DNA of 64,000 bases from Sphaerochaeta sp. GTDB lineage: Bacteria; Spirochaetota; Spirochaetia; Sphaerochaetales; Sphaerochaetaceae. Of the stretch, positions 1,718-52,547 are shown in pieces. Below the pieces are notes generated by a model that was given only the letters and a program-made list of their open reading frames with translations, was not told the origin of the DNA and did no database searches. The stretch is taken from the NCBI GenBank assembly GCA_018399495.1, contig JAGYOG010000011.1:1-64000 (forward strand). Reading direction: 5' to 3'. Positions within the stretch are counted from its first letter, which is position 1. The number at the start of each line of letters is the position of its first letter. The translations under genes were made by a program, and so were the position numbers.

Positions 1718-2863
1718 TTACAGGTTGCTGACACCATTTTCCCTGAGTAATTTCTCTGCATCCTCGACAATCATTTGTGCAAAAGCATCACTATCAAAGG
1801 TGGTAGGGAGTTTTTTAAAAGCTTCCACCATAGCTTGCTGTGCTTGGCTATCCTCACTGTAGGCTTGCAGGATATCAACCTGTTTTTGGATGGTGTTTTC
1901 AACCCAGCCAACTTGATGACGTTCGAAGAACTGAGTAGTGGGTTTTGCTGCGTAGAGCAAGCTTGAGATCAGGAAGGGACGCTTGAGATAAAGAGACTCC
2001 ATCAAGGCATTTGCCCCTGCCTTGCCAGCCTGTACATCACACGCACAAATGTAGTCCTGTATGTTGTCAACAAAGCCAGGAGTATAGAGAGGAAAGGAAG
2101 GATATTTCTCACGAAAATACTTGTAATGCAGTTTTGTGCTACTACTGAGAGTCCCTACAGTAATGATTTGCCAATCAAGGTTTCTCCTTTGTACTTCCTC
2201 AAGGAAATCGGTCGTACCAATACCTTCTCCACCAAGGTTGAGCAAGACGGTAAAACGGTCTTGTAATCCCAGTTTTTCTTGTGCTCGCTGTTGTTCCGGG
2301 ACTTCGGTGTGCATCATCTGGGTTTTCAAGGGAAAAGGGCAAATCGAAATGGTTTTTTCCTCTTGTCCAAACTCCATGGCAAGTTCTTTTCCCAAATGGG
2401 TACAGATATAGAATCGGTCCAATGCAGAATTGATACCCAGCCTAGGGGTGAAGACGACATCCGTAGCATATTCGAATACTGGTACCGGCAACCCTAGCTT
2501 TGCAACGATTGGTTGGATGAGACAGCCAGCAAGGAAGTGAGCAACAACAATACAGTCAGGGGTATTTGCATCGTACCACGCTTTGAAGTCCTTTACAGCA
2601 TGGCTATGGGTCCCCAGGAAGCGGAATAGCCTTGCATTGAACCATGTGTCCTGCTTGGGATCGATGAATGCCTCAAGGCGAGGGAAATGCAACATCATAC
2701 GCCAGTTAGATTTGCTCATCCAATTGATGATAGGTGCGTTGAGTGTTTCAAATAAATCAGCAACAACAGTGGTATGGCCCAGCCGGAGTGCTGCATCACT
2801 CAAAGCTTTTGCAGGGGTGATGTGGCCTTTCCCTGCATCGACATATAAAAATGCTATGTGCAT
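1718..2863 (-). CDS. glycosyltransferase, MGDG synthase/GT28-like
   Basis: A 381-residue GT-B glycosyltransferase. The N-terminus carries DAGKGH (residues 9-14), the glycine/histidine loop of the monogalactosyldiacylglycerol-synthase N-terminal domain. The C-terminal half has the NLGGEG loop and a KAGANALMES segment, the nucleotide-sugar binding region of MurG/GT28 enzymes. Family members transfer a hexose from a UDP-sugar to diacylglycerol at the inner face of the membrane. The divergent GT4 gene at 2981 makes a shared role in membrane glycolipid synthesis likely (inference). No Shine-Dalgarno precedes the ATG; a promoter ends 6 nt before it, so the mRNA may be leaderless. The acceptor is not proven. 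Confidence 0.7.
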   Translation of the reverse strand: MHIAFLYVDAGKGHITPAKALSDAALRLGHTTVVADLFETLNAPIINWMSKSNWRMMLHFPRLEAFIDPKQDTWFNARLFRFLGTHSHAVKDFKAWYDANTPDCIVVAHFLAGCLIQPIVAKLGLPVPVFEYATDVVFTPRLGINSALDRFYICTHLGKELAMEFGQEEKTISICPFPLKTQMMHTEVPEQQRAQEKLGLQDRFTVLLNLGGEGIGTTDFLEEVQRRNLDWQIITVGTLSSSTKLHYKYFREKYPSFPLYTPGFVDNIQDYICACDVQAGKAGANALMESLYLKRPFLISSLLYAAKPTTQFFERHQVGWVENTIQKQVDILQAYSEDSQAQQAMVEAFKKLPTTFDSDAFAQMIVEDAEKLLRENGVSNL

Positions 2864-2869
2864 GCGTCA

Positions 2870-2898
2870 AGAATAGGGTAAAAATCAGACTGGGACAA
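2870..2898 (-). promoter_or_regulatory. promoter abutting the GT28-like start (leaderless candidate)
   Basis: On the minus strand TTGTCC (2893-2898), a 17-nt spacer and TATTCT (2870-2875) are followed by exactly 6 nt and the ATG. Transcription would start at or next to the A of the ATG. Confidence 0.55.
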
Positions 2899-2980
2899 GT
2901 AGTGAAACTGTCTTTAAGACATTTCTCTTGCTTGCGTCTAAGATAGGTAGGAGGTATCATGGGGTTCAGGAGCGTTCTGT

Positions 2981-4186
2981 TTGAAAATTCTTGTCACTAC
3001 AGATTTCTATCTACCACATATTACCGGTGTTACGACTGTAGTGGTAAATGAACAAAACATGTTTAGTCAGCTTGGTCATGAGGTACGTTTGCTCACTATC
3101 GGAAAATCTCCTGTTTCCTCATATGAAGCAGGAGTCTATTACATGAAAGGCAGCAGGATACAACCGCTCAGAGATTCCCAGTTGACCTTTTCATATAAGG
3201 ATCCTCTTCTTGATGACATCCTCTCCTGGAAACCTGACATTGTCCACTCCAATAATGAGTTTCTCACCATGGGATGGGCGAGAAGAATTGCTAAAGCATT
3301 GCACATTCCCCTGATCCATACGTGCCATACTGATTTTACCCGTTACGATGCTGCGCGCCGTATTCGGCACACGCTTTGGGATACCATGATGGCAACCATA
3401 GTTAAGAGACGGGTGCGCTATTGTGATCTCCTGATCAGTCCTTCCCTTTCCCACAGTCAAATGCTGGAGCGCTACCATGTAAAGCAACCAATTGTTGTCC
3501 TTCCCAGTGGCATTGACTTGGAAGGTTTTCAGCGTCCCGTTGGGTCCGATGAAATTACAGCCCTGCGTGCAGGTTTTGGGTTTTCCGAGGAACATTGCAT
3601 CTTGGTTTCAGTATGTCGTCTTGCCAGTGAGAAACGAGTCAATAAGAGCATTGATGACTTCTTTCTCCTCTCCTTTCTTGAACCATCGGCAAGACTGCTG
3701 CTGGTAGGTGGGGGGCCAAAGGAAGAGAGCCTGAAAAAGCAGGTTGCTGATTTGGGGTTGGAAGGGCTTGTGGTATTTGCTGGTGCCATCCCTTCAGAAA
3801 ATGTACATCTGTATTATAGACTTTCAGATGTATTTATCTCCTCCTCTGTGCGTGAGTCACAAGGTTTGGGATTTGTTGAAGCTATGGCAAGTTCTCTTCC
3901 CGTAGTCCTTCGCGAGGACCATAGTCTCGGTCTCTCTGTAGAGGATGAAGGGTGTGGCTACATCTGCGCGGATAGTCACTCGTTTGTGACAGCACTTGCA
4001 ACCCTTGTCTCTGACAAGCAGAAACGGAAAGCTATGGCAGAGAAATCAAAGCAAACAAGTGAGCGTTTTTCAATGTTTCACTGGGCGGAAACCTTGGTCT
4101 CAGTGTGTGAAATGACGCTTGATACGTGTGGTAAGCGTGATGACCGAGGGCATCACCACCAAGGTGGCAAACATGCAGTTCAATAG
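2981..4186 (+). CDS. glycosyltransferase family 4, diacylglycerol glucosyltransferase-like
   Basis: A 401-residue GT4 enzyme. It begins MKILVTTDFYLPHITGV, the usual N-terminal strand plus glycine loop of GT4 lipid glucosyltransferases. It has the donor-site segment CRLASEKR and the ESQGLGFVEA motif with two spaced glutamates. The start is a TTG with AGGAG at 2968-2972; an out-of-frame ATG at 2959 with a stronger Shine-Dalgarno opens a 30-codon ORF over it. The family makes mono- or diglucosyl lipids or other glycoconjugates. It is divergent from the GT28-like gene, so both may build membrane glycolipids (inference). The last 87 bases overlap the convergent RND gene. Confidence 0.72.
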   Translation: MKILVTTDFYLPHITGVTTVVVNEQNMFSQLGHEVRLLTIGKSPVSSYEAGVYYMKGSRIQPLRDSQLTFSYKDPLLDDILSWKPDIVHSNNEFLTMGWARRIAKALHIPLIHTCHTDFTRYDAARRIRHTLWDTMMATIVKRRVRYCDLLISPSLSHSQMLERYHVKQPIVVLPSGIDLEGFQRPVGSDEITALRAGFGFSEEHCILVSVCRLASEKRVNKSIDDFFLLSFLEPSARLLLVGGGPKEESLKKQVADLGLEGLVVFAGAIPSENVHLYYRLSDVFISSSVRESQGLGFVEAMASSLPVVLREDHSLGLSVEDEGCGYICADSHSFVTALATLVSDKQKRKAMAEKSKQTSERFSMFHWAETLVSVCEMTLDTCGKRDDRGHHHQGGKHAVQ

Positions 4187-6508
4187 TGCGATACTCATAA
4201 GACTCCCAAAATAACGTACTGGTGTATAGCTGGCAAAGAGGAACATCATCATTCCGGCAACAATGGATAGGGTAGTGAGAATGATAGGCCGGCCTGTCTC
4301 CTTTATTGTTTCAGAGAGCATATTTTCAACTGACAGTTTTTCTTCAGCAAGCTTGTTTTTATAGCGTATGAGGAAGTGAATTGCATCATCAATTCCAGCT
4401 CCTACTGCAACGGCGGCAAAGCTTACTGTGATCATATCGAACGGAATGTTGAAGAAATACATGAATACATAGTTTGCCATAACCCCTGTGAGTATAGGAA
4501 TAAGTGCATAGAACGCTAGGGATAGCGATTTGAAGGCCACAAAAACCACAAGAAATACCAAGATGTAGCTGGCATAGGTGCTCTTCTTCTGATCTGAGAG
4601 CAAGGTCGAGGAGAAATGAATCACCTTGTGCGGTTCTCCGCCCAGCGTAACTTGTGTGCCATTAGGGAGGAGAGGAAGCAAGCGCTTTACTCCTTCCTCA
4701 ATACGGGTGGAGCTGGAAATGGTCATGAGATCTTGATCGACGGAGTCATAGTTCTGCAAGAAGATAGTAAGCTTGGTCCCCTCAGGATTGAGAATAGCTC
4801 CCAGGTTTTCATCATTCTGGTTGCTCATCAGGATAATCATGCGATTGATAAGATTCAGCAGCCCCCTGGATGATGGAATTCCTTCCTCACCACTGTACAC
4901 TTGGTTGGCGAAGCTTACATAGCTGGCAAATGAGAGTATCTGTCGTACATCAGGAAGTTCTGAGCGTATGGCCTCCTCAAAGGCATATACCTGGGATAGG
5001 TTTTCGCTTTGGAGGAAGAATTGCTCTGCACCTTCGGGTGCATCAATGGTGATCGTATAGGGTGTGTCTCCCCCCATCTTCTGGGCGAAATAGCGTGAGC
5101 TCTGGGCAAATGTGTCCTTCTTTGGCAGGTAGGACATGTAGTTGGTATTGATGGGAATATGATCTTTGGTTAGTCCATACCCCGCAATAACCACAAGCCA
5201 GAGTAGGATAAATAGTACATATTTTCTTTTGACGAGGTTGTCGATTATGACAACAAGCCGTGCAAGATACCCCTTCTTGTATGTTCTAATCTGTGCTTTC
5301 TTGGGAGGGACTACCAAGCTAAGCTGGGCTGGAAGGTAGGTCGAAGCAAGAATTGCACAGTAGGTCACCCCTATACCCACTGCAATGCCGAACTCCCTGA
5401 GCGCAGGGGTCTGGGAGAAAAGCAGGCTGAGGAATCCAATCACTGTTGTCAGGCAGGCAAAGAAGATGGTCCTAAGAATTTTCTTGGTGGATTCGATGGA
5501 GTTTAAACCCTTCGCATAGTCGGTGTAATACTCTCCGATGACATGGATTGCGTAGGAAGAGCCGAGGTTGAGTACCATACAGGGGGTTACAATGTTGACA
5601 ATGGTAAGTGAATACCCGAGTAGTCTCATAGTCCCGAAGGTCCAGATGATGCCTATGACAGACATAGAGAAGGGGAGTAAAACACTTCGCTTTGCTCGGA
5701 AACTCAGGTAGTAGACTATCAAGATAGCGATGAAACAGAGCGATAGAAGCATGCTGAGGTCTCTGCTGAGGTATTTGATCAAGAGGTTGGTGATTACCGC
5801 TCCTCCATTGATGTGTACCCCCATTCCTTCATTTCGAAGGGGGTCCAACATGGCCGAGAGTTCACTCTCCTGCTCTGGGGTGAGTGCCAAGGAATCGAAG
5901 GAGAACAACATCCCATTCAGGTCCTCACTGACTAGATAGTCTTTTACGATAGGATCCTGTTCTATTCGTTGTCTTAAAAGTTCAGCATCAGCTGCATCCC
6001 ATTCACCTTGGGAGGCAAAGGGAACACTCATTAACCTGGTTCCCTTCTTTTCAAGGGTTACAAAATCAAGGATGGAGAACTTGTTTCCCAAGTAATCCGT
6101 TCCATCCATTTCTTCCATGACTCTACTGATCATATTGAGTGAGTCCGCTTCGAAAAGTCGGTCACTCTCCACCAATACAAGATATCTGGTAGTATAGGGT
6201 GGTTCCTTTTCAGGAAGGTCACCGGAAATATCAGCAATGAGATGTTCTGCGAGCATACTGGTCTCAAGCTGCATTGTTTCAGGAATTGCTTCATCTTCAA
6301 TAATAGAAGAATTCTGCTCTGTAGGTATATAAGGACCATCCCCTCCTTGGTATAGAGCAGGGGTTTCGTTTTCATTCATCAGCGTGACATAATCGGCGTC
6401 GAGCTGCAGATGGGTTGCGTGATACCCGAAGAAAACGGTAACCACGAGAATGAAAGCCAAGGTGATTTTGCTATGCTTACCTACAAATGAAAGAAAATCG
6501 AATTTCAT
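4100..6508 (-). CDS. RND superfamily transporter (MMPL/HAE3-like)
   Basis: An 802-residue membrane protein with the RND layout seen twice: one N-terminal helix, a roughly 200-residue external domain, then a block of about six helices, repeated. Motifs such as GAGIDDAIHFLIRYK in the second half match the conserved helix-4 region of MMPL/HAE3 exporters. Such proteins move lipids, hopanoids or other hydrophobic compounds through the inner membrane using the proton gradient; the substrate here is unknown. Neighbouring glycosyltransferases make a lipid substrate plausible but unproven. The ATG has GGAGTGG upstream and TATACT (6536-6541) may be its -10. The 3' end overlaps the GT4 gene by 87 bp. 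Confidence 0.75.
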   Translation of the reverse strand: MKFDFLSFVGKHSKITLAFILVVTVFFGYHATHLQLDADYVTLMNENETPALYQGGDGPYIPTEQNSSIIEDEAIPETMQLETSMLAEHLIADISGDLPEKEPPYTTRYLVLVESDRLFEADSLNMISRVMEEMDGTDYLGNKFSILDFVTLEKKGTRLMSVPFASQGEWDAADAELLRQRIEQDPIVKDYLVSEDLNGMLFSFDSLALTPEQESELSAMLDPLRNEGMGVHINGGAVITNLLIKYLSRDLSMLLSLCFIAILIVYYLSFRAKRSVLLPFSMSVIGIIWTFGTMRLLGYSLTIVNIVTPCMVLNLGSSYAIHVIGEYYTDYAKGLNSIESTKKILRTIFFACLTTVIGFLSLLFSQTPALREFGIAVGIGVTYCAILASTYLPAQLSLVVPPKKAQIRTYKKGYLARLVVIIDNLVKRKYVLFILLWLVVIAGYGLTKDHIPINTNYMSYLPKKDTFAQSSRYFAQKMGGDTPYTITIDAPEGAEQFFLQSENLSQVYAFEEAIRSELPDVRQILSFASYVSFANQVYSGEEGIPSSRGLLNLINRMIILMSNQNDENLGAILNPEGTKLTIFLQNYDSVDQDLMTISSSTRIEEGVKRLLPLLPNGTQVTLGGEPHKVIHFSSTLLSDQKKSTYASYILVFLVVFVAFKSLSLAFYALIPILTGVMANYVFMYFFNIPFDMITVSFAAVAVGAGIDDAIHFLIRYKNKLAEEKLSVENMLSETIKETGRPIILTTLSIVAGMMMFLFASYTPVRYFGSLMSIALLNCMFATLVVMPSVITLTTRIKRHFTH

Positions 6509-6560
6509 ACCACTCCAAATTCAATTCGGCCTACCAGTATAGCGTGGAAGAACAGGTGAA

Positions 6561-6588
6561 ACACCCACTTGAAAGTTCAAGTGGGTGT
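6561..6588 (-). terminator. terminator after the DEAD-box helicase gene
   Basis: A perfect 13-bp inverted repeat (ACACCCACTTGAA and its complement) with a 2-nt centre lies 7 nt past the helicase stop. The U-run on the minus strand is short (TTT), so efficiency is uncertain. Confidence 0.6.
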
Positions 6589-6594
6589 ACTTTA

Positions 6595-8469: not shown

Positions 8470-8593
8470 GGAACTCCTGATAATGTATGAGTGGATTATC
8501 GGTTAAATACCGAGACATGCAATATAACTTCCCCAGTTTATACAAATGAACAAGTTCTTGCAAGACATACACATCTGAATTATAAAAAAAGCC

Positions 8594-9634: not shown

Positions 9635-9646
9635 TGCTATTCCTCC

Positions 9647-10784: not shown

Positions 10785-10806
10785 GATTAAAACAAGGGGG
10801 AAAAGA

Positions 10807-20575: not shown

Positions 20576-20890
20576 CTAATCCCTCTTTGGTAACATGATA
20601 TTCAAAGCAACTGCTACTACCGTTGCGATAACTACCGGGGACTGTCCGAATACCGTCTGGAACCATACAGGGAAGGTCGCCAGGGCAGCAGACGATTCTG
20701 CTATTCCGATACCCAACGCTGCAGAGAGTCCTACGATCGAAGTGTTTCGGTAGTTCATCTCCTCAGATACTACCAGTTTCATCCCTGTCATGGCAATTGA
20801 GGCGATAGTGTAGCAAAACGATACCACATCTGGATTCCCCAAAGAAGCATTTTTCACGCTCTTAAAAGTGAAGTTTGTGGTACTATACAC
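20576..20890 (-). pseudogene. C-terminal remnant of a NCS2 xanthine/uracil permease
   Basis: The 104-codon frame ends with a segment typical of the last quarter of NCS2 (UraA/XanP) nucleobase permeases: the helix VVSFCYTIASIAMTGMKLV, then NYRNTSIVGLSAALGIG, then VVIATVVAVALNIMLPK at the C-terminus. Whole family members are about 430-460 residues, so some 320 residues are missing. The first 20 or so codons look unrelated. Its TAG stop directly abuts the ATG of the nucleoside hydrolase gene. A 5' deletion that brought in the divergent esterase promoter is the simplest reading (inference). Confidence 0.7.
20881..20886 (+). promoter_or_regulatory. -10 element abutting the esterase start (leaderless candidate)
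   Basis: TACTAT is followed by exactly 6 nt and the ATG at 20893. No Shine-Dalgarno is present, and no good -35 is seen at the usual distance. Confidence 0.35.
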
Positions 20891-20892: not shown

Positions 20893-21693
20893 ATGAAAAT
20901 TATACAAATTGCTGTTGGACCAAACCAAGTTCCGCTTACAGGATACCTCCAGGACATTACCGGGGACGGAGGGATCAGGAATATTCGGCCGACAATTGTC
21001 ATCTGTCCAGGGGGTGGCTATCGGTTTCGCTCTGAACGTGAACGCGACCCAGTTGCGTTGCACTTCCTCTCAATGAGCTACAATGTATTCATACTGGACT
21101 ATTCAGTACAGGAAGAGGCAAAGGACCTGAATCCCTTGCTGGAAGCCAGTGATGCCTTGGTCAAGATTCGTGAACATGCGTTTGAATGGATGTGTGACCC
21201 AACCAGGATTGCCATCATGGGGTTCAGTGCCGGTGGGCATCTGGCAGCCTCCTTGGCGCTGTTGCACAAACACCCCATGCTTTCGGCTAAGCAGAAGATT
21301 GTGGATGAAAACAATAAACCGGATGCCGCCATACTGTGTTATCCAGTGATCAGCGGAGGTAAGTATGCCCATGAGGAGAGTCTGGACTGGGTGAGTGGGA
21401 AAGATCCGGCACTACGCTCCCTCTTGAGTCTGGAAAATCAAGTCAGCAAGGATGCCTCTCCCTTATTCATCTGGCACACCGTTACTGATGGAAGTGTACC
21501 AGTGGAGAACAACCTTCAGTTGGCGGTAAACCTGCAGAAAGCAAAAGTCCCCTACGAACTTCATCTGTTCGAGAGCGGGGACCATGGTTTGTCGATGTGT
21601 ACTGAGGAGGTAGGTACCCCTCATGAAGCGTGTCGCCAATGGGTGGCTTTAGCCTCCAATTGGCTGAACAATCACTTCACTCACACCTTATAG
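20893..21693 (+). CDS. alpha/beta hydrolase, esterase/lipase-like
   Basis: A 266-residue serine hydrolase. The oxyanion region is VICPGGGYRFRS, the nucleophile elbow GFSAGGH, and the C-terminal acid/His pair lies in WHTVTDGSVP and SGDHGLS. It resembles bacterial acetyl-xylan esterase-like or BD-FAE carboxylesterases, which are intracellular here as no signal peptide is seen. ATG 20893 is preferred because MKIIQIAVG looks like a natural N-terminus; a TTG at 20875 would add six residues. It overlaps the convergent FAD oxidoreductase by 6 bp. The substrate is unknown. Confidence 0.78.
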   Translation: MKIIQIAVGPNQVPLTGYLQDITGDGGIRNIRPTIVICPGGGYRFRSERERDPVALHFLSMSYNVFILDYSVQEEAKDLNPLLEASDALVKIREHAFEWMCDPTRIAIMGFSAGGHLAASLALLHKHPMLSAKQKIVDENNKPDAAILCYPVISGGKYAHEESLDWVSGKDPALRSLLSLENQVSKDASPLFIWHTVTDGSVPVENNLQLAVNLQKAKVPYELHLFESGDHGLSMCTEEVGTPHEACRQWVALASNWLNNHFTHTL

Positions 21694-30450: not shown

Positions 30451-30479
30451 ATGACAAAAACTTGTATTCGTGATATACT
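30451..30479 (+). promoter_or_regulatory. promoter abutting the DtxR-type regulator start (leaderless candidate)
   Basis: ATGACA (30451-30456), a 17-nt spacer and TATACT (30474-30479) are followed by 6 nt and the ATG at 30486. Transcription would begin at the start codon; no Shine-Dalgarno is present. Confidence 0.6.
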
Positions 30480-30485: not shown

Positions 30486-30863
30486 ATGCAAAAGTCAGGA
30501 GAAGATTATCTTGAAGCCGTTTTGGCACTGGGTGAACAACACGAAAAGGTACGGACGACCGATGTCGCCCTTCGCCTTGGTGTTTCCAAACCAAGTGTGA
30601 ACCGTGCGATGAAGGTTCTCTCCTCCGAGGGATATGTGAAGCAGGAGACCTACGGGGATATTCACTTGACTGAGAAGGGGAGACTGAAAGCTTCTCAGGT
30701 TTACTTCAGACATAAAACACTTACACATTTCTTTCAGGAGGTGTTGGGTGTTGACTCAGTCATTGCAGAACAAGATGCTTGCCTCATTGAGCATGACATT
30801 TCAAGCGAAACGATGGAGAAACTTGCCAGTTATTTGCGCTCGGTAAAAAAAGATTTCTCATAG
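30486..30863 (+). CDS. DtxR/MntR-type metal-dependent regulator
   Basis: A 125-residue protein with an N-terminal winged helix (SGEDYLEAVLALGEQ, then VRTTDVALRLGVSKPSVNRAM as helix-turn-helix, then a wing ending HLTEKGR). The dimerisation/metal domain follows (FRHKTLTHFFQEVLGV, EQDACLIEHDIS). It lacks the C-terminal SH3 domain and so is the short MntR-like form. Metal ligands Glu, Cys and His (EQDACLIEH) fit a Fe/Mn sensor. It is divergent from feoAB and probably represses it when iron is plentiful (inference from position). The mRNA may be leaderless. Confidence 0.85.
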   Translation: MQKSGEDYLEAVLALGEQHEKVRTTDVALRLGVSKPSVNRAMKVLSSEGYVKQETYGDIHLTEKGRLKASQVYFRHKTLTHFFQEVLGVDSVIAEQDACLIEHDISSETMEKLASYLRSVKKDFS

Positions 30864-35031: not shown

Positions 35032-35773
35032 ACTGGGTTGGGGTCTTGCCGATAAAGCGTTTGAATATTTTTGCAAAGTAGCCGGGAGTGGGAAATCCAC
35101 AGTTCGTGGCAATCTCGCTGATGTTTTTCTTGGGATCCTTCATCATGATTGCTGCTTTATTGATTCGGTATGCATTGAGATATTGCAAGAAGTTCAGTTC
35201 GGTAACCTCTTTGAAGAGGCGGCTGAGATGGCTCTCTGATAAATCGAGGTAGGTTGCTGCCTCCTGGAGTCCCACCGGCTCTGAGTACATGTCAGCTATG
35301 TAGGCGATGGTTGCATTGATAACATGGTTCCCGGCCTGCTTGGGGAGGGGAATGAGTTCACTCTGGGAACGTTCCTTCTTTTTCAACTCCTCATACTCAC
35401 GATCTTCTTCCTGTAATTTTCTCACCAAAAATGCAAGGGTTTCTTCCAGCTCTTCGTCATCGATCGGCTTGAGCAGGTAGTCGAACACGCCGAGGCGGAT
35501 AGCACTCTTCATATAGGAGAAGTCTGCGTGTCCGGTCAGGATGATGGCATGGTTGATTGGACAGTTGCTGAGCATGGTCAACCCATCCTGTGCTGGCAGG
35601 CGAATATCAGTAATGACAATGTCTGGATCCTTTTCTTTGATCAGTTTCTCTCCGCTTAGTCCATCAGAAGCGGTTCCCACCAACTCCAGACCAAGAAGAT
35701 CCCACCTGATCGAGGAGACAATCTCCTCACGGACGATCTGCTCATCTTCCACAAAAACAACGCTATAACTCAT
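35006..35773 (-). CDS. response regulator with AraC-type DNA-binding domain (YesN-like)
   Basis: A 255-residue regulator. The receiver domain (residues 1-120) keeps the acidic pocket VEDE, the phospho-acceptor in ITDIRLP, the Thr of IILTGHAD and the Lys of LLKPID. A linker rich in Glu and Lys follows, then an AraC helix-turn-helix pair (SEPVGLQEAATYLDLSES and ISEIATNCGFPTPGYF). It is translated with the kinase gene (11-bp overlap). YesN regulators usually control a neighbouring sugar ABC transporter; here that would be the operon at 31015-35031, which it faces. Confidence 0.9.
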   Translation of the reverse strand: MSYSVVFVEDEQIVREEIVSSIRWDLLGLELVGTASDGLSGEKLIKEKDPDIVITDIRLPAQDGLTMLSNCPINHAIILTGHADFSYMKSAIRLGVFDYLLKPIDDEELEETLAFLVRKLQEEDREYEELKKKERSQSELIPLPKQAGNHVINATIAYIADMYSEPVGLQEAATYLDLSESHLSRLFKEVTELNFLQYLNAYRINKAAIMMKDPKKNISEIATNCGFPTPGYFAKIFKRFIGKTPTQFRDEGDTI

Positions 35774-37544
35774 TTTTTTCTTCCTTTATTGCTTTTTTGT
35801 CCGGAAACGATATGTTCGCCCAAGTTCCTTCATCCTCTATTGATTTCAGTGAGAAGTGCAATTTTTTTCCATATTTTAAAAATAATCTTCTATATACATT
35901 GTATACACCAACGTGTGGTGAGTTGGCAAGTTCATCAAGGTTCTCAGGTAAACGATCGGGAGGGAATCCAATACCATCATCGCATACAGCTATGAATATT
36001 CTTTCTTCCTTTTTTTCTACACGAACACTGAGATTCCAACTTCCAACCTTGGGTTCCAAACCATGGATGATGGAATTCTCAACCAATGGTTGGATGATCA
36101 GCTTCGGGGTCTTAACATCCTTGCAGCTGGGGTCCAGATATGTGTCGGTAGTCAGCTTATCAGCAAATCGTAATTTCTGGATGGTGAGATAGGATTCGAT
36201 CAAGGCCATGCTCTGTTCAAGGGTTGCCTCATTTTCGTGGTTGTCGACTGAGGAACGAAGGAGTTTGCCCAACTTGACGGTAATGGTGTAGATGTCTTCC
36301 TCTCCGTGCAGACGTGCTAGTGCCTTGATCGTATTGAGGGTATTGAAGAGGAAATGGGGATTCATCTGGCTTTCAAGAGCCTTTCTTTCAGCCTCGTTGA
36401 GTTTCGCCTGCTCTTCCCTGGTAAGGTCGAGGAGGCTGATGATCTGTTTGATCATTGCATTGAAAGAGTGTTCCAGCTGGCTGAACTCGCTGATCGAGCT
36501 GCTGACTTCCCGGCTTTCCAGTTTTCCTTGTTCCACCTCCCTCATCCGCTTGGCAAGGCTCTTTATCGGACGTGCAATGGAGCGTGAGAAAAGATAAGAG
36601 AGCCCCAATGCAAGAATCACCCCGATAAGCATGGTGGTGATGAATACTGAGAGCCAGTTCTCCATGCTCTGGAAAAATGGTGCGCTGCTGAGTGAGCCCA
36701 CCAGATGCAATCCAGTTCCTCCAATCGGTGAGACCGCAATGATGGAGGTGTCAGCAAGAAGAGAGCGGGGGGTATAATCTCCATCAAGTGCCTTGAGGGC
36801 TGGGAAACGGTCAAAGGAACCAAATCGCTCAGGATGGATCAAGCTGGTGACATAAAAGGACTTATTGTCAACCAGTAACATATCAGTGAGAACATGGTCA
36901 TTGTTGACTTGGGGAGCGAGTGCATCTGCATACAGGTCTACTACCAGGTATCCAAGATTTGTTCCTTCCTCGTCATAGACCCGTCGTAGTATTGAGGCTA
37001 CAACCTGTCTGCCGTTCTCGGCTATTCGATGGCCTTGAATGCTGATGAGACTCGCAGTAGGGGAAACCTGGCTGTTTTGGTTGATGATGGAGTTCACATC
37101 CCAGTCATTGCCATGGTAACGCAGGTCATACACCTCGGGAAATACATGGGTGGAAACTCGTACCTTTCCTGTATTACTGACAAGATTTGCACTGGCAAGA
37201 TAAATATCCCCGTGCATGACGGTAAACAGGAGTTCATAGAGTTCCCTGCTCTGTGATGATTCCGCTTCAAGCGTATCTGCCTTGAGGATTTCTACAATCA
37301 ATGGGTTAGTGGAGAGTAGGTATGCCTTGTGACGATACGACTCAAGAGCTTGGGCAACGATGTTCGCATCACCTGTGGTCATGTTCATTGCCTGTCTCAT
37401 CAGATACCGTTCTTGGTTTGTATTTCCTGCAAGTGCATAGTATGCAGAGAAGAGTCCCAAGGGTACAATGAGGACAATGAGGAAGTAGAAGAAGAGCAGC
37501 GTGAATAGGTTTGGCTTCTTGCGGCAACCCAAGAAGAATTTCAT
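35763..37544 (-). CDS. sensor histidine kinase (YesM-like, LytS-type HisKA_7TM-less)
   Basis: A 593-residue kinase: first membrane helix near residues 15-35, a roughly 250-residue extracellular sensor region, second helix, then a HAMP domain (SRSIARPIKSLAKRM). The phospho-acceptor is the His of QMNPHFLFNTLN (His_kinase family), and the ATP lid region includes NSIIHGLEP and DDGIGFP. It senses an external signal, likely a sugar, and phosphorylates the YesN-like protein. ATG 37544 is preferred: a -10 hexamer lies 6 nt upstream and the protein then begins just before the first helix. ATG 37616 or 37610 would add about 24 residues without a Shine-Dalgarno. Confidence 0.85.
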   Translation of the reverse strand: MKFFLGCRKKPNLFTLLFFYFLIVLIVPLGLFSAYYALAGNTNQERYLMRQAMNMTTGDANIVAQALESYRHKAYLLSTNPLIVEILKADTLEAESSQSRELYELLFTVMHGDIYLASANLVSNTGKVRVSTHVFPEVYDLRYHGNDWDVNSIINQNSQVSPTASLISIQGHRIAENGRQVVASILRRVYDEEGTNLGYLVVDLYADALAPQVNNDHVLTDMLLVDNKSFYVTSLIHPERFGSFDRFPALKALDGDYTPRSLLADTSIIAVSPIGGTGLHLVGSLSSAPFFQSMENWLSVFITTMLIGVILALGLSYLFSRSIARPIKSLAKRMREVEQGKLESREVSSSISEFSQLEHSFNAMIKQIISLLDLTREEQAKLNEAERKALESQMNPHFLFNTLNTIKALARLHGEEDIYTITVKLGKLLRSSVDNHENEATLEQSMALIESYLTIQKLRFADKLTTDTYLDPSCKDVKTPKLIIQPLVENSIIHGLEPKVGSWNLSVRVEKKEERIFIAVCDDGIGFPPDRLPENLDELANSPHVGVYNVYRRLFLKYGKKLHFSLKSIEDEGTWANISFPDKKAIKEEKNEL

Positions 37545-37550: not shown

Positions 37551-37579
37551 AGTGTATCGGCTATCAAGCGTGGATGCAA
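37551..37579 (-). promoter_or_regulatory. promoter candidate abutting the YesM-like start
   Basis: On the minus strand TTGCAT, a 17-nt spacer and TACACT are followed by 6 nt and ATG 37544. Both hexamers are only partial matches; it counts mainly as one of a set with the same geometry. Confidence 0.35.
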
Positions 37580-37706
37580 TATTGTTAAATGAAACGAATT
37601 CTTTTTGCATAAACATACTGTTTTATGAATAGCAGGGTTGACAAACATCCTTAAAGAGCGATACAAACAAGAAACAGCATACTAGGCTGTTCTTGAGGAG
37701 AGTACC

Positions 37707-44125: not shown

Positions 44126-44126
44126 A

Positions 44127-45679: not shown

Positions 45680-45694
45680 AAGGAGGAGGATAGT

Positions 45695-47380: not shown

Positions 47381-47402
47381 TATTCAACAAGGAGAATCTA
47401 CC

Positions 47403-49082
47403 ATGCAGATGACTGGAGCACAAATAATTATAGAATGTCTGATAGAACAGGGAGTGGATACCGTCTTCGGTTTTCCTGGTGGGGCAGTACTGCCTCTTTA
47501 TGACGCCCTGTACCAGAACCAGAGCAGAATCCGACATATCCTTACCAGCCATGAGCAGGGTGCTGCCCATGCTGCTGATGGATATGCACGTAGTACTGGC
47601 AAGGTCGGGGTATGTATGTCAACCAGTGGGCCAGGTGCGACAAACCTTGTAACCGGCATTGCCACTGCCTACATGGATAGTGTCCCCATGGTTGCATTCA
47701 CTGGGAATGTGACCGTACCTCTTTTGGGTAAAGACAGTTTTCAGGAAGTGGATATCACTGGTATTACCATGCCGATCACCAAGCACAATTTCATCGTGAA
47801 GGATGTAGCTGACCTGGCTGACACAATACGCACCGCTTTCAAGATTGCCCAGGAGGGAAGACCTGGTCCTGTCTTGATCGATGTACCGAAGGATGTGACA
47901 GTCTATACCGCAGATTTCTCTCCCCAGCCACTCGAGGCATTGAAGCCCCGCACTGAGAGACTGAGTGAGAAGAGTGTGGAACAGGCTTTGCAGCTGATCA
48001 AGCAAGCCCAGAGACCGATGTGCTATGTCGGTGGCGGCGTAATCAGGGCGAAGGCAAGTGAAGAACTTTCCGGTTTCCTGGAAAACATTGACAGCCCGGC
48101 TTGTACCTCCCTGATGGGTGTCGGGGCTGTAAGTTCGCTCAGTCCCAGGTTCACCGGATTGGTTGGCATGCACGGAACAAAAGTCTCTAATATGAGTGTT
48201 TCTGCTTGCGACTTGCTGGTAGTAATTGGTGCACGGTTCAGCGATCGTGTCGTCAGTAATGCCAGTGCCTTTGCAAAAAACGCAAAGATCATCCATATCG
48301 ATGTGGACCCAGCTGAGATTGACAAGAACATCAAGACGTACTGTCATTTGATTGGTGATTTGAAGGTGGTGCTTGCAGAGTTGAACAGTCGTATTGCAAA
48401 GCCAATGGCACACACAAAATGGATGGAACAGGTCGCTGAGTACAAGAAGCGTTATCCCCTCAGAGTGGACAGCGAAAGTGCTCGCTCCAAGGAAATCCTG
48501 AAAGCATTGCAGAGTGTACTTCCTAAAGGGTTCTTTGCGGTGACAGAGGTTGGGCAACACCAGATGTGGGCTGCCCAGTTCCTCAAGCATCTTGAGCCTG
48601 GTCACTTTCTCACCAGTGGGGGGTTGGGAACCATGGGATATGGTACCGGAGCAGCTATTGGTGCACAGGTCGGCAATCCCGAGGCCCGCGTAGTCAACGT
48701 TGCGGGGGACGGTAGTTTCAAGATGAACTGCAATGAACTGGCAACCATTGCACGTTACCAGATTCCGGTTATCATTCTGTTAATGAACAACCAGACCTTG
48801 GGTATGGTACGCCAGTGGCAGACACTCTTCTTTGACCGTCGCTACAGTGAAACCACCCTCGATACCATAATTGATTGGATGAAGCTTGCAGAGGCTTATG
48901 GGGTAAAGGGAATGCGTATCAGCAAAACTGATGACCCGAAACCGATTCTTCAGGCTGCAATGGACCTTGGGCAGGCTGTCCTCATCGATTGTGAGATTCC
49001 TGTCGATGACAAGGTCTATCCGATGGTTGCTCCTGGTGCATCCATTGATGAAATGCTTGGTGTTGAAGAAGTAGGTGTGTAG
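47403..49082 (+). CDS. ilvB: acetolactate synthase large (catalytic) subunit
   Basis: A 559-residue thiamine-diphosphate enzyme. The N-terminal catalytic Glu lies in SHEQGAAHAADGYAR; a central domain binds FAD, and the ThDP motif GDGSFKMNCNELATIARYQI precedes NNQTLGMVRQWQ. It joins two pyruvates, or pyruvate and 2-ketobutyrate. ATG 47403 with AAGGAG eight bases upstream is chosen over an upstream start inside ilvD. It is unusual that ilvB is last and ilvN first in the operon. The final 67 bp overlap an antisense XRE gene. Confidence 0.94.
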   Translation: MQMTGAQIIIECLIEQGVDTVFGFPGGAVLPLYDALYQNQSRIRHILTSHEQGAAHAADGYARSTGKVGVCMSTSGPGATNLVTGIATAYMDSVPMVAFTGNVTVPLLGKDSFQEVDITGITMPITKHNFIVKDVADLADTIRTAFKIAQEGRPGPVLIDVPKDVTVYTADFSPQPLEALKPRTERLSEKSVEQALQLIKQAQRPMCYVGGGVIRAKASEELSGFLENIDSPACTSLMGVGAVSSLSPRFTGLVGMHGTKVSNMSVSACDLLVVIGARFSDRVVSNASAFAKNAKIIHIDVDPAEIDKNIKTYCHLIGDLKVVLAELNSRIAKPMAHTKWMEQVAEYKKRYPLRVDSESARSKEILKALQSVLPKGFFAVTEVGQHQMWAAQFLKHLEPGHFLTSGGLGTMGYGTGAAIGAQVGNPEARVVNVAGDGSFKMNCNELATIARYQIPVIILLMNNQTLGMVRQWQTLFFDRRYSETTLDTIIDWMKLAEAYGVKGMRISKTDDPKPILQAAMDLGQAVLIDCEIPVDDKVYPMVAPGASIDEMLGVEEVGV

Positions 49083-49291
49083 CGATAGAGATAATGTACA
49101 AACTCGAGAAATGTAAGCTCGAGTGCGTCACAAATACTGTGAATAGTAGGTAGACGGGGTGTCCGTCTCCCCGATTCTATGTAATAGAGCTGGCTTCGAG
49201 AGAGGTCAGCTCTTTCTATGAGCTCTTCCTGTGTCATGTTTTTTTGTTGCCTGAGTTCCTTTATAGCTTGTCCGATTTCTCTCTGCTTCAT
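49016..49291 (-). CDS. small XRE-family transcriptional regulator
   Basis: A 91-residue protein with a Cro/CI-type helix-turn-helix over residues 6-65 (IGQAIKELRQQKNMTQEEL, then ADLSRSQLYYIESGRRTPRL, then LPTIHSICDALE). The tail is Ser/Pro-rich. It is convergent with the ilv-leu operon and overlaps the end of ilvB by 67 bp. A 21-bp inverted repeat upstream (49331-49351) could be its own operator. No Shine-Dalgarno is visible, and CATACT lies 6 nt before the ATG. Its target is unknown; control of the adjacent operons is only a possibility. Confidence 0.8.
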   Translation of the reverse strand: MKQREIGQAIKELRQQKNMTQEELIERADLSRSQLYYIESGRRTPRLPTIHSICDALELTFLEFVHYLYRYTPTSSTPSISSMDAPGATIG

Positions 49292-49297
49292 GGTGAA

Positions 49298-49303
49298 AGT
49301 ATG
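49298..49303 (-). promoter_or_regulatory. -10 element abutting the XRE gene start (leaderless candidate)
   Basis: CATACT on the minus strand is followed by exactly 6 nt and the ATG. No good -35 is seen, so the regulator may need an activator or another sigma factor. Confidence 0.3.
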
Positions 49304-49330
49304 ACTTTGCTAACTCTTTCTATTCTTTAA

Positions 49331-49351
49331 AATCGTCATTTTATAACGATT
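49331..49351. promoter_or_regulatory. 21-bp inverted repeat, possible operator of the XRE regulator
   Basis: AATCGT and ACGATT are separated by 9 nt, in an AT-rich region 40 nt upstream of the XRE start codon. Size and spacing suit a dimeric helix-turn-helix protein. Confidence 0.35.
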
Positions 49352-49490
49352 CTTGTAGAAAATTATACATTTTATGCAACAAGTCTAAAATTTATACACG
49401 TGTCTAAATGATTGATGCTATAAACTTACCTACCACATACAGGGATAGGATAAATCAAGAGAGTTTTTCCAATAATCAAGCATGAGATGG

Positions 49491-49496
49491 TATACT
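49491..49496 (+). promoter_or_regulatory. -10 element upstream of the rubredoxin-like gene
   Basis: TATACT lies 30 nt before the GTG start; the -35 (TTCCAA, 18-nt spacer) is weak. Confidence 0.4.
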
Positions 49497-49525
49497 AAGG
49501 GCTATAACCAGCAAGGAGGTTGTAC

Positions 49526-49996
49526 GTGGAAGATGATATGAGGCAAATGACAGCTGAGGAACTTGGCGCTCTTTGTACTAATTTACAGAAGGCTTGTACC
49601 AAACAGCTTAGGAATGAGGAAGCTTCCCTATTTGGGACTCTCGCTGCATATTATGACAAGCAGCGTACTATTGAGAAGGCTCAGGATCTCAAAACATTGC
49701 TTGCTGCAATCAACACTGACTTGTCTAATGGCTTTGCAGAAGCAAGCAATGCAGCTGAAGAATCCAATGACAGAGGAACCAAACGTGCCTTGGTATGGGG
49801 GGAGAAAGCCTCCAAATTGCTTAAGGCGCTTATGATACGCTATGAAAAACAAGGTAGTGCTCTGCTGGAAAACACCAATATATGGGTATGTGAAATCTGT
49901 GGTTTTGTGTATGTAGGAGACATTCCTCCTTCGGTTTGCCCGATTTGCAAAGTACCCAGTTTCAAGATTCACCCTATCCAGAAGGAGGCCGTCTGA
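49526..49996 (+). CDS. rubrerythrin-like protein with C-terminal rubredoxin domain
   Basis: A 156-residue protein. The first 115 residues are helical, with an EEASLFGTLAAYYDKQ segment that recalls the rubrerythrin four-helix bundle, but the usual diiron ExxH glutamate/histidine set is not evident. The last 35 residues form a rubredoxin site: VCEICGFVY and VCPICKVP, two CxxC pairs for one iron. Such proteins pass electrons in oxygen or peroxide defence. The start is GTG 49526 with AAGGAGG six bases upstream. The TGA overlaps the ATG of the ferredoxin-like gene, so the two are coupled. Confidence 0.7.
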   Translation: MEDDMRQMTAEELGALCTNLQKACTKQLRNEEASLFGTLAAYYDKQRTIEKAQDLKTLLAAINTDLSNGFAEASNAAEESNDRGTKRALVWGEKASKLLKALMIRYEKQGSALLENTNIWVCEICGFVYVGDIPPSVCPICKVPSFKIHPIQKEAV

Positions 49997-50481
49997 TGCA
50001 TGCTGCAAGAAATACTTCCCTGTGTACAAAAGATTGTGTCTGCCTGTTTGTATGCCCCACTGGTGCCACCGATACCGAAACTGGACAGATAGATTTTACC
50101 AAATGCCTGGACGGTTGCCGTCTCTGCGTGGATGCTTGTCCCAGTCATGCAATCTACTTGGTGCCTTCTGTATACCCTGCTCCGCAGGAAAAGAGTGAAG
50201 CAGTACGGAAGAGCTTGTTCGCTCTTGCTAAGAGCAAAGCAGGACAGGAACGTCTGGCTAGAAGCCTCTCAGAAGCAAGTGATGATCCAATTTTCAAGCA
50301 ACTTATGAATGCGGTTGCAACAAGCAATCGGGTGCTTGCTGAGGATTGCTACCGCGAAGCGGGGTATATTTTGCCACAGAGTGAAGCGGTACAGTTATGG
50401 TTGCATAATTTACTTAGTGAGCATGAGAAGGATGAGGATTTCCCCTCTGATGCAGTAAAGACACTGTTGGAGAAGCTGTAA
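49996..50481 (+). CDS. 4Fe-4S ferredoxin-like protein
   Basis: A 161-residue protein whose N-terminal 60 residues hold two four-cysteine motifs: LCTKDCVCLFVCPTGA (spacing C-x3-C-x-C-x3-CP) and KCLDGCRLCVDACPSHA (C-x3-C-x2-C-x3-CP). Both depart slightly from the standard C-x2-C-x2-C-x3-CP. About 95 helical residues of unknown type follow. It is probably a small electron carrier working with the rubrerythrin-like protein encoded one base upstream. Four base pairs separate its stop codon from the convergent MFS gene. Confidence 0.75.
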   Translation: MHAARNTSLCTKDCVCLFVCPTGATDTETGQIDFTKCLDGCRLCVDACPSHAIYLVPSVYPAPQEKSEAVRKSLFALAKSKAGQERLARSLSEASDDPIFKQLMNAVATSNRVLAEDCYREAGYILPQSEAVQLWLHNLLSEHEKDEDFPSDAVKTLLEKL

Positions 50482-50485
50482 GGAT

Positions 50486-51709
50486 TTATTTTTGTTCCTG
50501 TTTTTCTTTCAGGTAGATCAGGAAGACCCCGGTTGCCCCGATAAGGGCAGCCAGGGCAGTTGTAATCCAGAGCACGCTCATGGAGTACGATTCGATGATC
50601 AGGCCCCCGGTTATGGGGGCTATTGCATGTCCGGTGCCCATGATGATGGGCAAGATTGCAGAGAAACGGGAGCGATGACTAATTGGGGTGTTGTTTGCCA
50701 CATAGAAGTTGTCATTGGTTGCTGATATGATCTCCCCCAATGTGTAGATAACCGTTAATCCCATAAAAACGAATGGGGTGGTGGCAAAGGCAAAGAGTCC
50801 GAACCCGATTGCATAGAATATGCCACTGAGCGTTGAATTTGCCAGAGGGTGAAATCGTCTGAGCAAGCTCACAATGATGGGATTGCATAGAACGACTACA
50901 ATCCCGTTGATCGCCATCATCCTCCCATACAGAGGAGCTCCTGCCTCACCGAACAAGTTGGTGGTAAGCAGGGGAAGGGCAAACAACGTCTGGCTGTAGG
51001 CGAAACTGAAAAAGGTGACCGAAAGAGCGAAGAGAAGAAGCCTTGGTCGGGTGATCAAGGCCTTAAAGAGGCCTCCCTCTTCTCCCTTCTCTGTCGTTTC
51101 CCATCCCTTGCTCTCCTCGATCAGTTCCTTGGAGGGTTTGCTTTCCTTCACTTTGAGCATGACAAGCAGAACAGAGAGAATGCCAGCTGCTGCGTTTCCG
51201 TAAAACAACCACTGTGGAGCTGAGTAGAAGAGATAACCAGCAATGACCGGCCCTATGGAGAATCCGAGATTATGTCCAAGGTAGATGAGACTGAATGAGA
51301 CCTGGCGGTTCTCGATGCTGGTTACATCGGTTTTTAAGGCCTCCCGGGCAGGGTCAACCGCTCCATCAAAAAACAAGCCCATTAGGATGAAGTAAGGCAC
51401 AAATGCATCTCCCTCAAAGAAACCTGCCAGAATAAAACAAAGATCCATCAGCAATTGAAATACCACAAGCACAGGCTTACGCCCGATGGTGTCGGCAAGC
51501 TTGCTGCCGAGGAACGAGCCGGGGACATAGAGCATTGAGGCTATGGTCATGAATGTACCCGCTTGCAGCGGGGTATAGCCCAGCCTTCTGGTGAGATAGA
51601 GCGTCAAGAACGGATAGATGAATATGCCTATTGCGTTGATGACCGTGGCAAAGAAAAGTACATAGATTGGCTCTGGTAACCCTCTATAGAGGGAGAAGAG
51701 CCGTTTCAT
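50486..51709 (-). CDS. MFS transporter
   Basis: A 407-residue protein with 12 predicted helices in two halves. The loop after helix 2 reads GSKLADTIGRKPVLV, the MFS signature motif A (GxxxDxxGRR type), and a soluble loop rich in Glu and Lys (ESKPSKELIEESKGWE) joins the halves. The family exports drugs or moves sugars; the substrate cannot be told. It is coupled by 4 bp to the Cof phosphatase upstream, so the two may act on the same compound. Confidence 0.82.
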   Translation of the reverse strand: MKRLFSLYRGLPEPIYVLFFATVINAIGIFIYPFLTLYLTRRLGYTPLQAGTFMTIASMLYVPGSFLGSKLADTIGRKPVLVVFQLLMDLCFILAGFFEGDAFVPYFILMGLFFDGAVDPAREALKTDVTSIENRQVSFSLIYLGHNLGFSIGPVIAGYLFYSAPQWLFYGNAAAGILSVLLVMLKVKESKPSKELIEESKGWETTEKGEEGGLFKALITRPRLLLFALSVTFFSFAYSQTLFALPLLTTNLFGEAGAPLYGRMMAINGIVVVLCNPIIVSLLRRFHPLANSTLSGIFYAIGFGLFAFATTPFVFMGLTVIYTLGEIISATNDNFYVANNTPISHRSRFSAILPIIMGTGHAIAPITGGLIIESYSMSVLWITTALAALIGATGVFLIYLKEKQEQK

Positions 51710-52512
51710 AGGACAGCCTCGATGGCAAGTGCCAGACCGTCCTCACTGTTGCTGGCTGTACATGCATGTGCATGCGATCTTACCTCTTGGGGAGCATTGG
51801 CCATAGCCACCGCATATCCCGCTGCACGGAACATCCCAATGTCGTTATAGTAGTCACCCACTGCCATGACGGTTCCTGGGTTTACGCCATACGATTCACA
51901 GAGGGAGCGAACCGCATGCCCCTTATCTACACCTCTGGCTAGGATCTCGATATAGCGGGGGGAGGAGCTGAAAATATTCAAGGAGCTACCAAACCGGGTC
52001 TGCAACTCTTTCTCTTGTTCTTTCATATACTCACTCTCATCATGCATAGCCAATACCTTGAAGGGTCTCTCCCCCTTGCCAAGAGAGTCGCAGAGACTAT
52101 TCAGTGTGGCTATACGTCCCTGTGTGCGGGAAGCTCTCACTTCAACATCGTACCAGGCATTCATTTCATTCATGTACCAACTCTCATTGGTAAAAACAAA
52201 GTACTCAAGTTCAGTCTGCCCAAGGTAGGAGAGGACCTGCATGCACTGGTCTTTACTGATGGTATGTGCTTCCAGTTCCTTCCCGTCCTCGTCAAGCACG
52301 AGCGAGCCATTGAAACACCCCAGTGGCCCGGTGATTCCCAGTTCCTCTTGGATCAGGGTAAGACTTCCTGAGATCCTGCCGCTGACAAGCGCAACAATGA
52401 TGCCCTTTCGCCTGGCACGGCGAATGGCTTCTTTGGTTCTTGTGCTGATCTGGTGGTTTGGATCAAGCAGGGTTCCGTCTATATCGGTACAAATGAGTTT
52501 GCATTCAAACAT
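51706..52512 (-). CDS. Cof-type HAD-IIB phosphatase
   Basis: A 268-residue HAD hydrolase with motif I ICTDIDGTLLD, motif II ALVSGR, motif III ARGVDKGHAV and motif IV AVGDYYNDIGMF. The C2B cap groups it with Cof/YbiV sugar-phosphate phosphatases, like its paralogue at 12694. ATG 52512 is chosen: it begins just before motif I and has a promoter whose -10 ends 6 nt before it. An in-frame upstream ATG at 52530 would lie inside the promoter. First gene of a two-gene unit with the MFS transporter. Confidence 0.85.
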   Translation of the reverse strand: MFECKLICTDIDGTLLDPNHQISTRTKEAIRRARRKGIIVALVSGRISGSLTLIQEELGITGPLGCFNGSLVLDEDGKELEAHTISKDQCMQVLSYLGQTELEYFVFTNESWYMNEMNAWYDVEVRASRTQGRIATLNSLCDSLGKGERPFKVLAMHDESEYMKEQEKELQTRFGSSLNIFSSSPRYIEILARGVDKGHAVRSLCESYGVNPGTVMAVGDYYNDIGMFRAAGYAVAMANAPQEVRSHAHACTASNSEDGLALAIEAVL

Positions 52513-52518
52513 GCGAGC

Positions 52519-52547
52519 ATAGTAATACAAGAGACATTTCTTGTACA
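52519..52547 (-). promoter_or_regulatory. promoter abutting the Cof phosphatase start (leaderless candidate)
   Basis: On the minus strand TGTACA (52542-52547), a 17-nt spacer and TACTAT (52519-52524) are followed by 6 nt and the ATG. No Shine-Dalgarno is present. Confidence 0.5.

Follow-up and report, generated by a model that had tools for sequence, protein, structure and literature searches.

Six genes in a 64-kb stretch of Sphaerochaeta DNA (the window) encode a GT28-like protein, an alpha/beta-hydrolase esterase, a DtxR-type regulator, a YesM-like histidine kinase, a small XRE/HTH_3 regulator, and a Cof-type HAD phosphatase. A first-pass annotation had reported that each is preceded by a -10-like hexamer ending 6 nt before the ATG, and the sequences and gaps proved to be as described, with a gap of exactly 6 nt at all six genes. 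A NusG_II-domain gene that was absent from that annotation provides a seventh case (Table 1).

Table 1. Promoter-like elements upstream of the seven genes, in coordinates of the window
Gene	Coordinates	Strand	ATG	-10 hexamer	Gap to ATG (nt)	-35-like hexamer	Spacer (nt)	-10 extension
GT28-like	1718-2863	-	2863	TATTCT, 2870..2875	6	TTGTCC, 2893-2898	17	
Esterase	20893-21693	+	20893	TACTAT, 20881..20886	6			extended -10, TGG-TACTAT
DtxR-type regulator	30486-30863	+	30486	TATACT, 30474..30479	6	ATGACA, 30451-30456	17	TG, 30471-30472
YesM-like histidine kinase	35763-37544	-	37544	TACACT, 37551..37556	6	TTGCAT, 37574-37579	17	
XRE/HTH_3 regulator	49016-49291	-	49291	CATACT, 49298..49303	6			
Cof-type HAD phosphatase	51706-52512	-	52512	TACTAT, 52519..52524	6	TGTACA (4/6 match), 52542-52547	17	
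NusG_II-domain	56650-57027	-	57027	TACACT, 57034..57039	6		17	

A -35-like hexamer is found at a spacer of 17 nt in five of the seven cases, which include the four (GT28-like, DtxR, YesM-like, and Cof) for which a partial -35 had been noted before, and the esterase gene has a TGn motif instead. The XRE promoter has neither a clear -35 nor a clear extended -10 in the source genome. All seven genes start with ATG, and our scans were mainly of ATG genes. A core Shine-Dalgarno (SD) sequence, defined as a GGAG, GAGG, AGGA, or AAGG tetramer at positions -18 to -5, is found at none of the seven genes as opposed to 33 of the 53 window genes overall, and the earlier statement that no SD is visible at the six original genes holds under this definition (0/6). 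Twenty of the 53 window genes are without a core SD. A palindrome in the Cof promoter has the same copy number as its reversed control.

With the score of the weakest of the six originally noted hexamers (3.7 bits) as the cut-off for the -10, seven of the 53 window genes have a hexamer at offset 6 (the gap in Table 1), and each of the other offsets from 0 to 30 has 0-3 such genes. The YesM-like (37544) and XRE (49291) starts in this count were taken from the first-pass annotation, whereas a coding-only start caller supplied those of the remaining five genes. In 500 dinucleotide shuffles the mean count at offset 6 was 0.77 and the maximum was 4, such that none reached 7, and the earlier claim of a distinct set of genes withstood this shuffled control.

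A peak at the same offset was found in an independent 396 kb of the source genome, which excluded the window and contained 263 ATG genes; all genome statistics given here refer to these 396 kb plus the window, out of ~2.6 Mb. A combined -10 plus -35 score of at least 7 was reached by 13, 7, and 5 of the 263 genes at offsets 6, 7, and 8, and offsets 9 and 10 were likewise raised (5 and 4 genes), against a background of 0-1 genes at each offset from 0 to 5 and 0-6 genes at each offset from 11 to 40. The list of genes at this score contains likely chance cases, as offsets 11-40 average ~2.4 hits each, and individual genes, taken singly, could be such cases. Among the 92 genes that lack any SD 4-mer, nine have a hit at offset 6, compared with 0.5 in shuffles (maximum of 4 in 200 shuffles) and with an expectation of 0.3 derived from the full set of ATG trinucleotides. 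From the excess, we estimate that the class comprises ~7% of the ATG genes in the 396 kb, which makes it a genome-wide minority in Sphaerochaeta. A raw count of TATAMT-N6-ATG (45 versus 32 in a reversed control) was weak because it ignored gene starts, and it was replaced by the gene-anchored scans.

Twenty-four genes were chosen solely for a -10 at offsets 6-8, blind to the -35, and the remaining 239 served for comparison. A core SD is present in 2 of the 24 versus 140 of the 239. The trinucleotide TTG occurs 16-18 nt upstream of the -10 in nine of the 24 genes, compared with 0-3 genes at each other spacer from 8 to 35 nt and with 1/18 and 1/14 in control gene sets picked at other offsets. 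The base at -1 is a pyrimidine in 22 of the 24 genes and in 150 of the 239 others (p = 0.002), which fits transcription starting (+1) with the A of the start codon.

The spacing recurs in relatives. In orthologous upstreams of the six original genes the -10 is nearly always positioned 5-9 nt from the ATG, and offset 6 is the mode in each of the six sets, although orthologues are related and not independent observations. Identical upstreams were merged, and each start was set to the closest in-frame ATG up to 12 codons away, which shifted three YesM-like rows; truncated, paralogous, repeated, or weak loci (L023, L079-L090, L114-L120, L143-L147, L173-L180, and L202-L210) were omitted, and L200 was also excluded from the offset counts. 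Offset 6 occurs in all 19 distinct Cof upstreams, 19 of 20 YesM-like upstreams, 14 of 21 DtxR upstreams (offset 5 in four and 9 in three), 12 of 22 esterase upstreams (offset 7 in ten), and 10 of 14 GT28-like upstreams (offset 9 in four). The XRE set has it in 17 of 20 by the -10 alone and in 6 of 20 once the -35 is also scored. Secondary peaks of the -10 alone (Cof, 13/19 at offset 3; XRE, 12/20 at offset 4; DtxR, 8/21 at offset 11) arise because hexamers overlap, and they fall to 0, 0, and 1, respectively, when the -35 score is added. Five relatives of the NusG_II gene have TACACT 6 nt (three, one of them with GTG) or 7 nt (two) before the start.

A stricter test, which required the -10 to pass at offsets 5-8 in every row used, was applied to contig C12 with 2-4 relatives. 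Fourteen of its 89 genes passed, with 6, 5, and 3 starts at offsets 6, 7, and 8 and 0-2 gene starts at each other offset. Three of the 14 conserved cases lie at starts other than those called, and one of these three has a core SD in four of five rows. Only 2 of 49 window genes passed the every-row test; among the failures, the offsets of the GT28-like, esterase, and NusG_II genes vary across relatives, and the XRE gene has a low -35 score. A genome from the one other family sampled (G029) had no clear peak, with 2, 2, 2, and 4 of 131 genes at offsets 6-9.

The DtxR family members bear either the promoter or an SD, and they offer a natural experiment on why genes are leaderless. Among 33 spirochaete loci (of 44; ten clostridial loci and L281, whose start is unclear, were omitted), 25 have the promoter without a core SD, seven have an SD without the promoter, and one has both (Fisher p = 2e-6, uncorrected for relatedness). 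Five of the 25 promoter calls are weak hexamers (TAAAAA, TTGAAT).

What kinds of genes belong to the class? Among the candidates are dnaA, a gyrase B-type gene, a ParA-like gene, and aromatic-biosynthesis genes, and many are housekeeping genes. By our reading of Pfam hits, five of 32 candidates look like regulators, and two of the 32 queries are fragments cut at stretch ends (L241:19274-19999 and L244:2-727); the richness in regulators noted in the first-pass annotation is not evident from this count. The dnaA gene has its -10 at offset 6 in 20 and at offset 7 in three of 23 readable genus upstreams, and all 23 have TTG at a 17-nt spacer together with a -1 pyrimidine; a core SD is scored in ten of these owing to AAGG at about -16. 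The upstreams of the DAHP synthase/prephenate dehydratase gene are similar, with offset 6 in 21 and offset 7 in three of 24, and with TTG at 17 and a pyrimidine at -1 in all 24 (L346, at a contig edge, and the truncated L375 are omitted from these counts). The dnaA mRNA is apparently among those predicted to begin right at the start codon.

We consider it very probable that these genes are served by sigma70-type promoters with the -10 located 6 (to ~8) nt from the start codon and that these promoters give rise to leaderless mRNAs. This reading, which the first-pass annotation had proposed, is well supported at the sequence level by the offset peak in independent DNA, the genus-wide spacing, the absence of the SD, the -35 TTG, and the -1 pyrimidine. 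The promoter anatomy, its statistical excess, its conservation, and its complementarity with the SD are observed, and from them we infer where the transcripts begin and how they are translated. With a -10 at this distance, transcription would start on the A of the ATG or within 1-2 bases of it. Such mRNAs would be translated without SD contact, through recognition of the 5'-terminal AUG. Recognition of a 5'-terminal AUG is carried out by 70S ribosomes or by 30S subunits with IF2. Leaderless starts would be retained gene by gene across the genus, and SD-led starts may substitute for them in some relatives within the DtxR family.

A possible but unlikely alternative is that transcription of many of these genes begins 1-4 nt upstream of the ATG and leaves a tiny 5' tail. 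The raised counts at offsets 7-10 (7, 5, 5, and 4 of 263 genes) agree with this, as do offset 7 in the esterase set and offset 9 in the GT28-like and DtxR sets, and they imply that some transcripts would carry short leaders; the tallest peak, however, is at offset 6, and the -1 pyrimidine again favors +1 at the A. That the hexamer is instead a conserved non-SD element for translation (e.g., an A/T-rich ribosome contact), with transcription starting farther upstream, seems very doubtful. We found no direct support for such an element, although the window genes without a core SD need some explanation. Arguing against it are the TTG at 16-18 nt from hexamers picked blind to TTG, the TTG at 17 nt throughout the dnaA and DAHP synthase upstreams that we examined, and the TG extensions of the DtxR and esterase genes, which together with the near-fixed spacing are features of promoters.

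It is harder still to credit that chance and selection by the reader account for the whole set. TAnnnT is degenerate and common, the six genes were chosen by eye, and the window hexamers match TATAAT at only 4-5 of 6 positions, but the shuffles, the offset profile, the independent sequence, and the orthologues all oppose this explanation for the set as a whole.

Leaderless initiation is a known phenomenon that is already in print for spirochaetes, and what is new is the Sphaerochaeta case. The remark in the first-pass annotation that leaderless genes are scarcely described in spirochaetes was wrong, as the available excerpts of a Leptospira transcription start site map (PMC5243855) and a 2011 survey (PMC3160421) report them. 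The survey, as excerpted, describes 'TA-led' genes, in which TANNNT lies ~12 bp ahead of the start; 6 of the 18 Spirochaetes genomes have them, at a mean of 3.9% (1.8-6.9) of genes (Zheng et al. 2011). The Sphaerochaeta -10 occupies a comparable place; those excerpts do not name Sphaerochaeta, and relative to them our analysis adds orthologue-by-orthologue conservation, the -35, the -1 pyrimidine, and the promoter/SD exchange. Leptospira interrogans is likewise a spirochaete with many leaderless mRNAs: the excerpted dRNA-seq study places the start site at the start codon of 184 genes at 30 C and 170 genes at 37 C, gives ~440 genes with a leader of <10 nt, and reports no promoter motif except sigma54 (PMC5243855). 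The 5' ends were measured in L. interrogans, whereas those of Sphaerochaeta are predicted but come with a visible -35 and -10. In Deinococcus-Thermus, a -10 motif placed a few bp upstream of the coding sequence (the '-10 region adjacent to ORF' pattern) yields leaderless mRNAs, with enhancement by a -35, and in D. radiodurans the pattern occurs in about one third of genes, according to the excerpted text of PMC12340547; in Sphaerochaeta the class is a minority and the core SD is commoner. Our literature searches found no paper on Sphaerochaeta and leaderless genes and nothing for Treponema combined with leaderless and 'transcription start sites', and no leaderless dnaA was reported in the excerpts consulted from among the matches listed for leaderless and dnaA.

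The candidates can be tested as likely leaderless genes, the replication initiator gene dnaA among them, in a spirochaete genus that has cultured species. More speculatively, and we would sooner expect this to be mistaken, leaderless starts may form an ancient class, maintained by selection, in the Sphaerochaetaceae and families close to them, in which dnaA, a type II topoisomerase B subunit gene, a ParA-like gene, and genes for shikimate-pathway enzymes use 5'-terminal AUGs; a global shift in ribosomes or initiation factors could then separate replication initiation from SD-led expression. Promoter position also fixes start codons. The YesM-like gene has an in-frame ATG at 37616, upstream of 37544, and 37544 is the correct start because the conserved promoter is the one anchored on it.

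The first-pass annotation proposed that six genes of the window, each with a -10-like hexamer ending 6 nt before its ATG and no visible Shine-Dalgarno (SD) sequence, are transcribed as leaderless mRNAs (i.e., mRNAs beginning at the start codon). On re-reading of the sequence all six hexamers are exact at this offset (nt between the end of the -10 and the start codon), and neither these genes nor a seventh, with a NusG_II domain, has a core SD tetramer (GGAG, GAGG, AGGA or AAGG at -18 to -5). At offset 6 such a hexamer precedes 7 of 53 window genes, compared with 0-3 at each other offset from 0 to 30 and with a mean of 0.77 (maximum 4) at offset 6 in 500 dinucleotide shuffles; the cut-off was a score at least that of CATACT, and starts came from a coding-only gene caller except for two entered from the first-pass annotation. 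A core SD tetramer is present at 33 of the 53 genes and at none of the seven. In five relatives of the NusG_II gene, TACACT lies 6 nt (three, one with GTG) or 7 nt (two) before the start.

The source genome is a 2.6-Mb draft Sphaerochaeta assembly (92 contigs, estimated completeness 89%), of which an independent 396 kb, window excluded, holds 263 ATG genes. Promoter matches peak at offset 6, with 13 genes there and 7, 5, 5 and 4 at offsets 7, 8, 9 and 10. No offset from 0 to 5 has more than one, and offsets 11-40, a range that also takes in ordinary leadered promoters, have 0-6 each (mean about 2.4). The scan suggested in the first-pass annotation, of genes without SD against shuffled sequence, gave a result in line with the proposal: among the 92 genes lacking any SD tetramer, 9, 4 and 4 have matches at offsets 6-8, with 0.5 expected at offset 6 from shuffles. 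When 24 genes outside the window were chosen on the -10 alone at offsets 6-8, a core SD was found in 2, versus 140 of 239 others, and TTG at spacers (nt between -35 and -10) of 16-18 in 9 (p = 2e-4 versus spacers 22-35; other spacers, 0-3 each). Control genes with a -10 at offsets 0-4 (n = 18) or 11-15 (n = 14) have such a TTG in one case each and a core SD in 7 and 8, respectively. If transcription starts on the A of ATG, a pyrimidine is expected at -1; one is present in 22 of the 24 genes versus 150 of 239 (p = 0.002).

The orthologue search covered 40 relatives for DtxR and 26 genus genomes for the other five genes; distinct upstreams were compared gap-free, anchored on the aligned ATG (see table). 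The -10 score alone gives secondary peaks from overlapping hexamers (Cof, 13 at offset 3; XRE, 12 at 4; DtxR, 8 at 11), which fall to 0, 0 and 1 once a -35 is added. Of five upstream blocks, the -10 is best kept in all genes but DtxR, where the -35 (0.71) is better kept by major-base frequency; the 25 bases farthest upstream reach 0.44-0.64. A stricter scan compared contig C12 with 2-4 relatives and required the -10 to pass in all rows used; it retained 14 of 89 genes at offsets 5-8. Three of the 14 lie at a start that differs from the called one, and one of these three has a core SD in 4 of 5 rows. In the window, the same scan retains only 2 of 49 genes, and differing offsets between relatives account for some of the failures.

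Features in the window and divergent gene pairs at other loci, with offsets in distinct orthologue upstreams that have a -10
Feature	Position	Strand	Offsets	Offset 6 with -35	-10 major-base frequency	Core SD rows
GT28-like	ATG 2863		6 in 10/14, 9 in 4	10	0.82	1
Esterase	ATG 20893		6 in 12/22, 7 in 10	11	0.58	5
DtxR	ATG 30486		6 in 14/21, 5 in 4, 9 in 3	14	0.64	0
YesM-like	ATG 37544		6 in 19/20	19	0.97	1
XRE	ATG 49291		6 in 17/20, 5 in 2	6	0.86	1
Cof	ATG 52512		6 in 19/19	16	0.92	2
NusG_II domain gene (Pfam)	ATG 57027	minus				
Cof inverted repeat	52525-52546	minus				
Divergent pair	L241:14750-14829					
Divergent pair	L246:15908-15988					
Divergent pair	L235:14648-14742					

Of most interest here is dnaA, which 24 of the 26 genus genomes have and whose leaderless-type promoter is conserved. 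TTG-17-TA(A/G)AAT followed by ATG is found in all 23 readable upstreams, with a gap of 6 nt in 20 and 7 nt in 3 and a pyrimidine at -1 throughout; 10 of the 23 score as core SD, via AAGG at about -16. In a search of 79 genomes, 76 had a match, and of 20 further upstreams fetched and read by eye, seven have a promoter 6-9 nt before an ATG and no core SD: three of the five upstreams of the same family (L407, L408, L409) and four of the 15 taken from other families (L412-L415). Nine have a core SD and no convincing promoter at that place, three have neither (L419, L420, L425) and one has an ambiguous start (L410). The DAHP synthase/prephenate dehydratase gene has offset 6 in 21 upstreams and 7 in 3, with TTG at 17 in 24/24. 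Read by eye, the last bases of the dnaA -10 form part of an out-of-frame ATG (TAAAATG...) in 19 of 23 upstreams (L335-L345, L347-L354); if transcribed, the one in the source genome would start an ORF of three codons.

Of 290 genes called outside the window, 25 reach a score of 7 or more at offsets 5-8. Their Pfam matches include DnaA, a DNA gyrase B-type protein, a ParA-like ATPase, DAHP synthase/prephenate dehydratase, dehydroquinate synthase, serine dehydratase, MTHFR, MazG, a response regulator and an ArsR-like regulator. Within the window the matches are an alpha/beta hydrolase, a DtxR-type repressor, a Cache/HAMP histidine kinase, an HTH_3 regulator, a HAD phosphatase and the NusG_II protein; the 'GT28-like' label is unconfirmed because that protein has no Pfam match at E 0.001. 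By our reading of these matches, 5 of the 32 candidates would be regulators. Three divergent pairs, with 78-93 bp between genes, carry such promoters on both sides.

Among 33 spirochaete DtxR orthologues, uncorrected for relatedness, 25 combine a promoter at offsets 5-9 with the absence of a core SD (five of them with weak hexamers, TAAAAA or TTGAAT), seven have an SD without such a promoter and one has both. In 200-kb samples, a peak is seen in G016, a genome of the same genus (4 and 6 of 128 genes at offsets 6 and 7), and in two of other families, G030 (7/155 at offset 6; other offsets, 0-4) and G028 (6/129; 0-3), with no clear peak in G029. Regions syntenic with the window have 6/52 (G002) and 4/54 (G005) at offset 6.

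The layout is that expected of a sigma70 promoter whose 6-nt discriminator would place +1 on the A of AUG. The sequence itself shows the sites, their spacing and conservation, the lack of SD and the -1 pyrimidine; the 5' ends, and translation from a 5'-terminal AUG, are inferred. The finding holds up as a sequence feature and belongs to a kind already described. According to a survey of 953 bacterial genomes, TA-led genes occur in 6 of 18 Spirochaetes, at a mean of 3.9% (PMC3160421), and in Leptospira interrogans the transcription start site is reported at the start codon in 184 and 170 genes at two temperatures (PMC5243855). The same arrangement as in Sphaerochaeta is described for D. radiodurans, where about a third of the genes use it (PMC12340547). 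In the literature searched, no paper on leaderless genes in Sphaerochaeta came up.

Several further features accompany individual upstreams. In GT28-like orthologues with a 9-nt gap (L075-L078), the 6-nt position holds ATC or ATT and ATG comes next, as would be expected if an earlier start codon had been lost by mutation and its neighbour had replaced it. TGACG/TGACA-like elements repeat farther upstream of XRE (L151-L172) and are possibly an operator or activator site. The Cof promoter has an inverted repeat, GTACAAG-N8-CTTGTAT, between its -35 and its -10, seen by eye in L181-L192. A genome search returned one exact copy and, on contig C23, a second with 1 mismatch, with no excess over a reversed control. 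It is possible that this repeat is an operator.
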